DNA of 39,343 nucleotides from a virus: the IMG/VR virus record IMGVR_UViG_3300023174_000336, positions 1-39,343 of that record; one strand, 5' to 3'. Under the pieces are notes generated by a model that saw only the letters and a list, made by a program, of their open reading frames with translations, was not told where the DNA came from and made no database searches. Within the stretch, counting starts at the first letter, position 1. Each line of letters starts with the position of its first letter. Below are positions 32-39,239 of the stretch, one piece after another. Both the position numbers and the translations under genes were made by a program.

Positions 32-92
32 GCCTCGTCAGCAGCTGGTAATCAATCCAGCTGGACTGGTCGTCGCATCGACCAGTTTCGGC
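32..92 (-). ncRNA. Type II hammerhead ribozyme, copy 1
   Basis: Minus strand, 5' to 3': GCC (92-90), GAAA (89-86), stem III CTGGTCG/CGACCAG (85-79 with 72-66, loop ATGCGA) extended by the A86-U65 pair, cleavage cytidine C64, stem I CAGCTGG/CCAGCTG with an 8-base loop, the CTGACGA box, then GGC (34-32), which pairs with the opening GCC as a 3-bp open stem II. Every invariant core base of the hammerhead is present. Open stem II defines the type II permutation. Predicted cleavage is between 64 and 63. The 5' G is the last base of the TAG stop of the upstream gene. The ribosome site of the next gene begins 12 bases after the 3' end. Confidence 0.92.
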
Positions 93-397
93 TAGGCCTT
101 GGAGGCCTTGAGCTTGGCGATCTCGAGCTTCCATCGGGTGATGGTCTCGTCGAGCTTGGCGTACTTCTCCTCGTTGCGAGCGATGCTGCGCTCAGCTGAA
201 GCGATGCGATCAGCTGCGCGGTCAGCCAGCTCCCAGCTGTATGGCTGGAGGTTTCGCTTGGCGTCGTTGATCCAGCGTCGCAGGTGCGACTTCTCAGCTC
301 GCAGCGAGCGGATCTCCCGCTCGTAGCTGCTGATCTCGAAATCCGTCTTGCTGAAGACGTAGACCTTTCCGTCGGCCGTGAATGATGCGTTTCCCAT
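92..397 (-). CDS. Coiled-coil protein in the ribozyme-processed leftward operon
   Basis: This is a 101-aa protein of unknown function. The ATG at 397 was chosen over an in-frame ATG at 430 because AGGAGG (407-402) precedes it, and the upstream start would run into ribozyme copy 2. After about 20 residues (GKVYVFSKTDFEI) the chain is one long charged helix rich in E, R, K and A, with many heptad-like spacings to the end, so a coiled coil is likely. No signal peptide or membrane segment is visible. It is flanked by ribozymes 2 (upstream) and 1 (downstream), and its stop codon shares a base with copy 1. Its RNA would therefore be freed as a single-gene message. Confidence 0.8.
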   Translation of the reverse strand: MGNASFTADGKVYVFSKTDFEISSYEREIRSLRAEKSHLRRWINDAKRNLQPYSWELADRAADRIASAERSIARNEEKYAKLDETITRWKLEIAKLKASKA

Positions 398-423
398 GTT
401 GCCTCCTATGTCTCGAGGAACCT

Positions 424-476
424 GCCTCATCAGCAGCTGGAGGTTATCCCAGCTGGACGCCCGAAGGCGTTTCGGC
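424..476 (-). ncRNA. Type II hammerhead ribozyme, copy 2 (UUCG-capped stem III)
   Basis: This is the most compact copy, 53 nt. Minus strand: GCC (476-474), GAAA (473-470), stem III CGCC/GGCG closed by a cUUCGg tetraloop (465-462) plus the A470-U457 pair, cleavage C456, stem I CAGCTGG/CCAGCTG with loop GATAACCT, CTGATGA, then GGC (426-424) pairing with GCC. The core matches the hammerhead consensus exactly. Predicted cleavage is between 456 and 455. The first G is the last base of the TAG stop of the 476-700 gene. The stable tetraloop, unrelated to stem III of the other copies, shows that structure rather than sequence is conserved there. Confidence 0.94.
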
Positions 477-700
477 TACCAAGCGTGAGCGTACTGCTTG
501 CACCAGACGCTGCAGTCTTGGCCGTTGTTCTTGCGGTCGTGCTTCTCCTTGAGCGTGAGCGGCTCGTAGCAGCTCATGTGGTAGATGCGCCAGACCAGTG
601 TGGCCTGATCAGCTCGACCGTACTCGACCACGAGCACGGCAGTCTTGGCCGTCGTGCTCTTCTCGCAAAGCACGCAGATGCGTGCAGCTCGTTTCGCCAT
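476..700 (-). CDS. Small cysteine-rich, probably zinc-binding protein
   Basis: This 74-aa protein has CVLC near residues 9-12, a HMSC element in the middle and CSVWC near the C-terminus. These are candidate metal ligands, suggesting a zinc-ribbon-like fold, but no named family is recognised. The ATG at 700 is preceded by AGGAGGTAAC, nearly the same leader as the 781-993 gene. It lies between ribozyme copies 3 and 2, and its TAG stop overlaps copy 2 by one base. Such small proteins in a separately transcribed phage unit often act early on host functions, but nothing here shows that directly. Confidence 0.8.
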   Translation of the reverse strand: MAKRAARICVLCEKSTTAKTAVLVVEYGRADQATLVWRIYHMSCYEPLTLKEKHDRKNNGQDCSVWCKQYAHAW

Positions 701-718
701 GTTACCTCCTGTTCACCT

Positions 719-780
719 GCCTCATCAGAGCTGGTAGGTGAGTCCCAGCTGACTGACCGTCGCATGCGGCCAGTTTCGGC
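719..780 (-). ncRNA. Type II hammerhead ribozyme, copy 3
   Basis: Minus strand: GCC (780-778), GAAA (777-774), stem III CTGGCCG/CGGTCAG (773-767 with 759-753, loop CATGCGA) plus the A774-U752 pair, cleavage C751, stem I AGCTGG/CCAGCT with a 10-base loop, CTGATGA, GGC (721-719). Stem III resembles copy 1 but with a compensatory T-A to C-G change and a G-C to G-T change, which supports pairing. Predicted cleavage is between 751 and 750. It starts directly after the TGA of the 781-993 gene and ends just before the AGGAGG of the 476-700 gene. Confidence 0.92.
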
Positions 781-993
781 TCAGAGCTCTACGCTCTTGA
801 ACGTCTTGGTCAAGGTCTCCGACGGCAGTGCGCGATGCCGACTGCAGCGCAGGTCGTCGTGCTCCTTGCCGTACAGGTCGGTGTACGTCTCCCGCACCAC
901 AGCAGGCTTGGTGCACTGCTTGATGGGAGAGAGGCCACCGAAGCCGAAGCTGCTGTAGCGGGTTGAGCACTTGAGCTTCTTGGCTCGTGCCAT
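781..993 (-). CDS. Small basic cysteine-containing protein, first gene of the leftward operon
   Basis: This 70-aa protein of unknown function starts MARAKKLKCSTRY. It contains C9, C27 and C50 and several histidines, so a small metal site is possible. The ATG at 993 is preceded by AAGGAGGTAACA. It is the first gene after the long intergenic region in the direction of transcription. Ribozyme copy 4 sits just upstream of its ribosome site and copy 3 directly after its TGA. A longer open frame (725-1018) overlaps it in another frame, but lacks such a ribosome site and would cross both ribozymes. Confidence 0.75.
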   Translation of the reverse strand: MARAKKLKCSTRYSSFGFGGLSPIKQCTKPAVVRETYTDLYGKEHDDLRCSRHRALPSETLTKTFKSVEL

Positions 994-1011
994 TGTTACC
1001 TCCTTGGCCTT

Positions 1012-1087
1012 GCCTCATCAGAGCTGGTCGGCCACGTCCAGCTGACGGTGGGAGCTGCAGGGTTGCCTGTGCATCCCACCGTTTCGG
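1012..1087 (-). ncRNA. Type II hammerhead ribozyme, copy 4 (long stem III, weak stem II)
   Basis: Minus strand: CC (1087-1086), GAAA (1085-1082), stem III CGGTGGGA/TCCCACCG (1081-1074 with 1053-1046) plus A1082-U1045 and a 20-base apical part that can form a small CAGG/CCTG hairpin, cleavage C1044, stem I AGCTGG/CCAGCT with a 10-base loop, CTGATGA, GGC (1014-1012). Stem II has only two standard pairs because the third would be C-A. All core bases are kept. Predicted cleavage is between 1044 and 1043. No gene lies upstream, so cleavage here would trim the leader of the operon rather than separate two genes. Confidence 0.87.
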
Positions 1088-1272
1088 TTGGAGGTTTTGG
1101 GTTCATGTATTCAGCTGTTCAGGAGACCGACCTTGCGGCTGCCTTGTGGTCTTCGGCCTCTGGTCACCCCAGCTCCGTCGCCCTTCTGGCACTGAAGCTT
1201 GCGCCTCAGCTGTCTGAAGACAGGTTAAGGCCTAGCTGCGAGTCTTGCAACCCCCATTTCGTGCTCAAAGTG

Positions 1273-1313
1273 ATTGTTACATGTGTAAGATTTCTTAACA
1301 ATCCTGTAACAAT
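1273..1313. repeat. Inverted ATTGTTACA / TGTAACAAT pair
   Basis: ATTGTTACA (1273-1281) and its exact complement TGTAACAAT (1305-1313) are separated by 23 bases. The spacer itself contains the dyads TTACA-TG-TGTAA and GTAAG-ATTT-CTTA. This could be a protein-binding operator near the leftward operon's promoter. On the minus strand TTGTTA-N17-AACAAT could act as a weak promoter, though the match is poor. Related motifs recur at 1598-1622 and 1770-1778. Confidence 0.5.
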
Positions 1314-1597
1314 GGGCAGCTGAGCTGAGCTGAGCTTGAGGCCTGAGCTGTGGAGCGGTGATGGCCGTAGAGGCCTGTCAGAAGGCCGTAGAGCTGCGTT
1401 GAGGCCTTGGCCTGTGTGGTTGGGCTGTGCCATGGACATCGAGGCTCCTGACCCCGAAAGTCAGACATTGTTGCACCTGCAACTATTCTCAGCTGAGGCC
1501 TGAGGGGGTGTCTCCTCACAGTGGTTGAGCCCCCTAGGCGGTCGCCACCACCACTGCCCTTGATACTAGGGGGGAGTATCTGACCACAGCTCTGCAC

Positions 1598-31915: not shown

Positions 31916-32072
31916 GATTGGTCTCTACGCAAACATTAACGCCAAGCGCAAGCGAATCGAAGCTGGCTCTGGCGAGAAGATGAGAAAGCCTGGGGCCAAG
32001 GGAGCCCCGACGAACAAGGCCTTTGTCGATTCTGCGAAGACGGCAAAGCGACCTCGCTCCAAGTCCTTGTAG
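31905..32072 (+). CDS. Small basic phage protein whose stop lies in the tRNA gene
   Basis: The 55-aa protein starts with GTG 31905, with GGGGGGTAAGC upstream. It contains GLYANINAKRKRIEAGSGEK and MRKPGAKGAPTNKAF, a pattern repeated in many phages as a small basic protein of unknown function. Its TAG stop (32070-32072) is formed by the first bases of the tRNA, a 10-base overlap. Ribosomes would therefore reach into the tRNA unless the transcript is processed first. Confidence 0.75.
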   Translation: MPAKIGLYANINAKRKRIEAGSGEKMRKPGAKGAPTNKAFVDSAKTAKRPRSKSL

Positions 32073-32138
32073 CTCAGGGGATAGAGCGCCTCCGTCCTAA
32101 GGAGGGCGTCGGGGGTTCGAGTCCCTCCGAGGACACCA
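32063..32138 (+). tRNA. tRNA-Arg (anticodon CCU), CCA encoded
   Basis: A full cloverleaf of 76 bases: acceptor GTCCTTG/CGAGGAC, D arm GCTC/GAGC, anticodon stem CCTCC/GGAGG with loop GTCCTAA giving anticodon CCU, T arm GGGGG-TTCGAGT-CCCTC, discriminator A and encoded CCA (32136-32138). It reads AGG, an arginine codon used very often in these genes, for example across the portal, fibre and giant protein. One oddity is G at loop position 32. It overlaps the preceding stop codon and is followed by a terminator. Confidence 0.93.
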
Positions 32139-38297: not shown

Positions 38298-38645
38298 TCA
38301 ATCCTCATCAAAAATGAATACAGGAACCCACCCATCCGACATGCAAGCTCCTGCAGCCTCAGGCCACCCTGAGGTGTCGACCTTTGTGCCACACGCTTGC
38401 GTGAGTGGCAGGCCATTGATCTCGAGCTCTTCTGGCTCAGCCGATACGCCGACAGGCCAGTCGCACTTACTGCACGCCCACACGACGCTGCGCGGGGAGT
38501 CCTTGTACGGCTGGCTCGGCTCATGGCCAAGCTTGGTGGCCTCGTCGATGCTCTGCAGGTAGAGCCTGCCCAGTGCGCCAGACCAGCGGTTGAGCTTGAA
38601 CGGTACGAGCTCTTCGTCGTCCGCCTTCTTCCATAGCGAGCTCAC
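38298..38645 (-). CDS. Unknown protein with CxxC, last gene of the leftward operon
   Basis: This 115-aa acidic protein starts with GTG at 38645 overlapping the previous TGA. It has VVWACSKCDWPVGVSAEPEE, a CxxC pair, and a later single cysteine (TQACGTK), so a zinc site is possible. The C-terminus ends VPVFIFDED. No family is recognised. There is no ribozyme between it and its neighbour. Confidence 0.65.
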   Translation of the reverse strand: MSSLWKKADDEELVPFKLNRWSGALGRLYLQSIDEATKLGHEPSQPYKDSPRSVVWACSKCDWPVGVSAEPEELEINGLPLTQACGTKVDTSGWPEAAGACMSDGWVPVFIFDED

Positions 38646-38872
38646 ACTGCCAGCTTGACGGCCACGCCGACGTTCTTACGAGACCAGCGAGCGATGCGCT
38701 CCATGGCCTCCTGCTGCGTGCGAGCTCTTCCTGTGACGTGCGATCGTGGCGACCGAGTCAGGGACGTCGTAGCTTCGAAGCCATACGTCCAGCTGTATCG
38801 GTCGTCCTTCCAGATCCTAAAAATGAATCCTTCGTCCGTATACCCTTTGTCGATGTTAACTCCGTCCATCAT
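38642..38872 (-). CDS. Small unknown protein
   Basis: This 76-aa protein starts at ATG 38872 with AAGGAGACCT upstream, inside the end of the preceding gene (17-base overlap). It has a beta-rich first half (EGFIFRIWKDDRYSWTYGFE) and a basic helical second half (TQQEAMERIARWSRKN). This resembles a small dsRBD-like alpha/beta shape, but no family is recognised. Confidence 0.65.
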   Translation of the reverse strand: MMDGVNIDKGYTDEGFIFRIWKDDRYSWTYGFEATTSLTRSPRSHVTGRARTQQEAMERIARWSRKNVGVAVKLAV

Positions 38873-39239
38873 AGGTCTCCTTCATACACTTGATGCAGAT
38901 CGGCACGAGGCCGATGCCGCGTAATGCGTTAGCTGTGGCCTTGCTCTTGCCGACTTCCATGAAAGCTACGCTGGTCTCGCGGTCAAAGTAACCACCAGTG
39001 CCAGTGTAGATGTCGACTCGGATCTTCTTGCCGCAAGCTACGCAGATTTCCAAATAGTTTGCTCGTCCTTCCCTCCAGCTCTCCCGCGCATGCTGGTCGA
39101 GCTTCTCGTCGCTGGGGAGGAGGATGCCGCCATTACCAGCAAGCCTCTCGAGCACTACGACCATGTGGTCGACGTCTGGGTTGCTTGTGATTTGGCAGAT
39201 CCTCCTCGCCAGCTGAGGGATGGCCTCGGCCACCGTCAC
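38856..39239 (-). CDS. Unknown protein with two CxxC pairs
   Basis: This 127-aa protein starts with GTG 39239 overlapping the TGA of the gene before. It has CVACGKKIRVDIY in the middle and CIKCMKETYDG at the end, forming a likely four-cysteine zinc site. Before it is a helical region (VAEAIPQLARRICQITSNP). Several genes of this operon share small size and cysteine pairs, so they may be a set of zinc-binding early proteins. No family is recognised. Confidence 0.7.
   Translation of the reverse strand: MTVAEAIPQLARRICQITSNPDVDHMVVVLERLAGNGGILLPSDEKLDQHARESWREGRANYLEICVACGKKIRVDIYTGTGGYFDRETSVAFMEVGKSKATANALRGIGLVPICIKCMKETYDGRS

Follow-up and report, generated by a model that had tools for sequence, protein, structure and literature searches.

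In 2011, Perreault et al. described clusters of hammerhead ribozymes that flank single genes of phages, advanced the hypothesis that they process mRNA, showed that triple arrays cleave both in vitro and in E. coli, and found 4 of 18 consensus-conforming hammerheads to be inactive in vitro (PMC3088659). The prophage arrays of that study (Agrobacterium, Azorhizobium and Clostridium scindens; PMC3088659) resemble the locus analyzed here in that they include type II hammerheads, with a pseudoknot between loop I and the 3' tail, and in that several hammerheads of one transcription unit flank single genes or short blocks of genes. They differ from it in that here four hammerheads lie within 1.1 kb of a phage metagenome contig, each ribozyme has a single gene to itself, stop codons abut stem II or lie inside it, and cleavage is predicted from sequence.

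Three further systems offer a comparison. The early polycistronic RNA of phage T7 is processed into mono- and dicistronic mRNAs (PMC4858673), and its RNase III sites are likewise intercistronic structures at which a polycistronic phage RNA is cut (PMC4858673); there, however, a host protein makes the cut, whereas here the RNA would cut itself, leaving a 5'-hydroxyl and a cyclic phosphate. In RiboJ-type insulators, a hammerhead placed 5' of the ribosome binding site gives the mRNA a uniformly trimmed 5' end (PMC7536230, PMC6206723); most of these hammerheads cut about 85-90% in cells (PMC7536230), and transcript levels are about twofold higher with RiboJ (PMC6206723), but RiboJ is a synthetic element set behind a promoter rather than between natural genes. 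Finally, the hammerhead-like ribozyme HHphage of haloviruses HF1/HF2 lies 13 nt ahead of the start codon of a phage gene, a helicase gene, with a mapped 5' end at most 3 nt from the cut site (PMC3088659), although it is a single ribozyme with a variant core in an archaeal virus.

The stretch of DNA analyzed here (the window) comprises an entire IMG/VR phage record, 39,343 bases in length, which encodes a terminase, a portal protein, a major head protein, a distal tail protein and a replicative helicase. At its left end, one leftward operon carries several hammerheads on one strand, flanking single genes. In the order of transcription, its features are:

1088-1345, minus strand: leader, 5' of the first ribozyme, kept in two relatives; its block ATTGTTACAGGATTGTTAAGAAATCTTAC is a promoter/operator candidate
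1013-1087, minus strand: hammerhead 1 (type II), predicted cut between 1044 and 1043, stem II of 2 bp, pseudoknot UGGCC/GGCCA; RF02276 match at 1002-1089, 39.1 bits
781-993, minus strand: gene 1, 70 aa, AAGGAGG and then ATG 19 nt past hammerhead 1; the UGA stop lies directly against hammerhead 2
719-780, minus strand: hammerhead 2 (type II), predicted cut between 751 and 750, pseudoknot UCACCU/AGGUGA; RF02276 match at 711-781, 37.8 bits
476-700, minus strand: gene 2, 74 aa, with cysteine; the G of its UAG stop is also that of hammerhead 3 stem II
424-476, minus strand: hammerhead 3 (type II), predicted cut between 456 and 455, pseudoknot AACCU/AGGUU; RF02276 match at 416-477, 38.5 bits
92-397, minus strand: gene 3, 101 aa, resembling a coiled coil; the G of its UAG stop is also that of hammerhead 4 stem II
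32-92, minus strand: hammerhead 4 (type II), predicted cut between 64 and 63, pseudoknot UUGAU(U)/(G)AUCAA; RF02276 match at 24-93, 46.8 bits
1-8, minus strand: start of gene 4, AGGAGGT and then ATG GCA; the rest is lost at the contig end

The Rfam model RF02276 (Hammerhead_II) matched four minus-strand sites of the window over its full length, all above the gathering score of 37 bits. A structural scan that demanded the invariant core and set minimum lengths of 4 bp for stem I, 4 bp for stem III and 2 bp for stem II returned exactly these four, and neither scan found a further hammerhead in the 39,343 bases. The sequence-only reading had already placed four type II hammerheads on the minus strand and had proposed the Rfam type II covariance model as a check; the model and the structural scan agree with it in position, and the scan predicts the same four cuts. 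Dinucleotide shuffles of the whole window gave a mean of 0.07 structural-scan hits per shuffle, and among 2000 shuffles of region 1-1200 one contained a single hit and none contained two, which rules out a chance motif as the explanation of the four sites. No other Rfam RNA family scored above threshold in the array region.

All four copies contain the core C3UGANGA9, G12AA(A), U16.1 and H17, the latter being C throughout, and all have loop-closed stems I (6-8 bp) and III (5-11 bp) and an open stem II of 2-3 bp. The sequence-only reading had listed GCC in every copy; this holds in three, and the most upstream copy (1013-1087) has ACC, so that its stem II has 2 bp instead of 3. Known type II hammerheads normally have a short stem II, which relies on the pseudoknot that loop I usually forms with the tail 3' of stem II (PMC3088659). 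Such a pairing of 5-6 pairs, a feature unused in detection, was found in all four copies, and a four-by-four comparison of loops and tails in the window showed that the best partner of every loop is its own tail. Based on the covariance model, the core and this independently found pseudoknot, we identify the four sites as type II hammerheads. In secondary-structure predictions stems I and III form and the 2-3 bp stem II does not; stem III of copy 2 fails to form in a short context, and in longer transcripts other pairings compete with stem I of some copies.

The spacing of ribozymes and genes in the array is tight. Each ribozyme begins directly past a stop codon (UGA followed by GCCGAAAC) or shares a G with it (UAG with CCGAAAC), and 18-26 nt separate its end from the next ATG, with a Shine-Dalgarno sequence in between. 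Every complete interval between two ribozymes contains one ORF. The assignment of one gene to each ribozyme, as originally suggested from the letters, is therefore seen in full for three of the four, since the gene that follows the 32-92 copy is truncated at the contig edge and consists only of the ATG GCA at 8-1. Searches of Pfam, PHROGs and PADLOC gave no confident name to any array gene of the window; gene 1 had no Pfam or PHROG match, and gene 3 had only coiled-coil matches, all of them sub-threshold.

We also analyzed the surroundings of the array. A search for sigma-70-type promoters on the minus strand of 1-2500 gave no hit, and thus the start of the operon was not located. Alignment of the leader with two relatives, L128 and L129, revealed a repeated ATTGTTAC / ATTGTTAAGA..TCTTAC block and a conserved CTGAACAG.TGAATACA stretch; the conserved AT-rich block may be the operon promoter or a regulator site. 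We claim no RNA element in the leader, because the covariation term that RNAalifold computed for the three sequences was slightly unfavourable (+2.68). When the two contig ends were joined as for a circle and read by hand, they were not in frame. The minus-strand genes at the right end (38642-39239) show ordinary phage-type overlaps with no hammerhead in between; within the limits of the contig, the ribozymes are therefore restricted to a single operon. A lone tRNA-Arg gene (anticodon CCT) lies at 32063-32138 on the plus strand, among replication genes. Regarding the host, the terminase had no match among 50,697 phage records, and an assignment from capsid and helicase was rejected: the capsid hits listed, to fecal, Bacillus and Paenibacillus phages, are only 27-31% identical, and those for the helicase spread too widely to discriminate.

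Taken together with the precedents, we propose, with a probability of roughly 0.77, that type II hammerheads in the gaps of this operon of small accessory genes cut the polycistronic RNA into one-gene mRNAs with structured ends. Hammerheads cleave between stem III and stem I. Each of the four would fold in the nascent RNA, and its cut would separate the stem III hairpin from the stem I hairpin, freeing one gene on its own mRNA, so that a gene between two ribozymes would have structured ends on both sides. The upstream product would end in the stop codon, GCCGAAAC, the stem III hairpin and GUC with a 2',3'-cyclic phosphate, while the downstream product would begin with a 5'-hydroxyl, the stem I hairpin, CUGAUGA, the pseudoknotted tail and the Shine-Dalgarno sequence. 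Stability and translation of neighbouring genes would thereby be uncoupled, as at the RNase III sites of T7 and with RiboJ in synthetic operons. The presence of a ribozyme ahead of gene 1, upstream of which no conserved gene was recognised, is consistent with the ribozymes shaping 5' ends in addition to separating genes. The sequences show the motifs with their pseudoknots, placement and conservation, and others have shown that comparable arrays cleave; that these four cut, how their products fare and what the phage gains are inferred.

Comparison with related phages indicates that the folded RNA has been retained. In the corresponding minus-strand operon of two relatives, L128 and L129, whose terminases are 79% identical, there are 6 and 5 type II hammerheads, and a third, known from a fragmentary record, has 2 close to its end. 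No hammerhead was found in the available records of two relatives that are further removed (terminase identity about 71%), so the array is not essential to such phages. Across the 15 hammerheads of the window, L128 and L129, stems I and III differ in sequence and retain their pairing: each of positions 1-5 of stem I shows between two and four types of standard pair, with one non-pairing cell, and stem III positions 3-4 show two to three. In the copy with the UCACCU pseudoknot (hammerhead 2 of the window), loop and tail are identical across the three phages, yet the stem I arms are AGCUGG/CCAGCU, CACCGG/CCGGUG and GCCGGG/CCCGGC. Since the stems diverge and stay paired around an intact core, selection on the folded RNA is indicated.

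Two further observations concern these relatives. The orthologous hammerheads at L129:6432-6484 and L128:6531-6586 (both minus strand) precede the same 90-aa gene; stem III is mostly replaced between them and still paired, and the nucleotide at the cleavage site is C in L128 and A in L129. In addition, the window has an excess of AGCT/CAGCTG (760 AGCT against 546 expected, both strands), most densely in 1-2000, whereas the relatives over-represent CCGG instead (184 against 105), and the two words occupy corresponding spots, including hammerhead stem I arms and the leader.

Most of the genes between the ribozymes have been exchanged. The three array genes of the window have no recognisable homologue in the arrays of the relatives; L128 and L129 share only the first and the last two of their ribozyme-adjacent genes and have different ones in the middle; and ribozyme 3' halves of the same kind (UCACCU and CGCC types) stand before different genes in the two. 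Array genes are mostly unknown accessory genes in general, as Pfam, PHROGs and PADLOC named very few of 116. All this would also be expected if the ribozymes were modular joints or hitch-hikers, short conserved elements at which cassettes recombine and whose cleavage is of little consequence. Recombination, however, needs conserved sequence, and here the stems diverge with pairing kept and core intact, so we regard this explanation as improbable and favor the dicing of the operon RNA.

To place the array in a wider context, we surveyed viral contigs and bacterial genomes with a motif scan, obtaining 248 non-redundant hammerheads among the matches listed; the scan favours a GCC/GGC stem II, the ORF calls follow simple rules and the counts ignore phylogeny. 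Exactly one ORF was present in 51 of 95 intervals of up to 4 kb between successive hammerheads (among the matches listed). Loop I formed a mean of 3.9 Watson-Crick pairs with its own tail and 2.9 with other tails (248 hammerheads, among the matches listed), and within arrays of at least three hammerheads a loop's own tail did no worse than any other in 66 of 97 cases (among the matches listed), which makes the specificity of the pseudoknot look looser elsewhere than in the window. Among the matches listed, at E-value limits of 0.01 or 1e-4, 36 of 119 phage records matched the type II model two or more times and 12 matched it four or more times; thus, four in a row is not exceptional. Two other uncultured phages have very long arrays, each on one strand: L131 (G005:C1:1-13000) has 11 hammerheads, the most among the matches listed, with one ORF in most intervals, and L133 (G010:C1:1-12000) has 9. 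The sequence-only reading had considered the arrangement undescribed; this does not hold, as clusters, the processing hypothesis and the cleavage of triple arrays were all presented by Perreault et al. in 2011 (PMC3088659).

The survey also bears on what would happen after the cut. If the cut were followed by ligation of the 5'-hydroxyl and cyclic-phosphate ends, through reverse cleavage or a host RtcB ligase, the product would be a one-gene RNA with its hammerhead halves re-joined, or a circle. Stem II halves of neighbouring ribozymes do pair almost as well as cognate ones (mean 2.98 against 3.37 bp; 94 intervals, among the matches listed), the GGC of the hammerhead 1 3' strand pairs better with the GCC of hammerhead 2 than with its own ACC, and because a ribozyme also precedes gene 1, even that gene would be excised on both sides. 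On the other hand, this cross-pairing is uninformative since stem II is near-invariant, cognate pairing is still slightly better, and spliced or circular products from such arrays were looked for and not detected (PMC3088659), making ligation quite improbable compared with linear one-gene mRNAs as the end product.

The survey also covered the position of the stop codon. That of the upstream ORF lies at most 6 nt from the core in 152 of the 248 hammerheads and at most 30 nt in 214, and 43 have a UAG inside stem II (among the matches listed); at random positions in the same loci, a stop lies within 0-5 nt in 3.9% and within 30 nt in 19%. UAG is favoured at the junction, where it accounts for 60 of 158 stops against 15 of 73 farther off (among the matches listed). 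Likewise, TAGCCGAAAC is present in 48 of 225 CCGAAAC hammerheads as opposed to 7 of 195 CCGAAAC words outside hammerheads, and in 40 of those 48 it is in frame with an ORF of at least 40 codons (among the matches listed). These junctions, together with the discussion of regulated cleavage by Perreault et al. (PMC3088659), could suggest a switch responding to magnesium, a ligand or a terminating ribosome that blocks folding at the stop codon until it departs, but the loops of the four have no aptamer-like insert and close packing alone would account for the junction, given a median spare gap of 13 nt beyond ribozyme, pseudoknot tail and Shine-Dalgarno sequence with a modest lean to the stop side (among the matches listed), so that we deem such a switch highly improbable. 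Stop codons are not mentioned in the main text of PMC3088659, and therefore their anchoring of the ribozymes, and its frequency, may be unreported; a literature search that covered few subscription journals found no later work on phage hammerhead arrays.

Extending the dicing of operon RNA beyond this locus, we tentatively suggest, at somewhat less than even odds, that stop-codon-anchored dicing is a general system of phage type II hammerheads, in which UAG is often used in stem II, the ribozyme fills the gap to the Shine-Dalgarno sequence and is retained while genes swap, giving each incoming accessory gene ready mRNA ends, and the ribosome possibly gates the cut. The order of stop codon, ribozyme, pseudoknot tail, Shine-Dalgarno sequence and start is a measurable rule, which holds for most type II hammerheads listed from phage contigs and less strictly in bacterial genomes. 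The role of phage hammerheads has been an open question since 2011. The set in the window is clean, is conserved in close relatives and follows this tidy spacing rule of most surveyed hammerheads; together with the arrays of the two relatives it offers a compact test case, with four ribozymes on one strand and ends predicted to the base. If their cleavage is confirmed, it would represent a protein-free dicing of phage polycistronic RNA, a natural counterpart of both RiboJ and the RNase III sites of T7.
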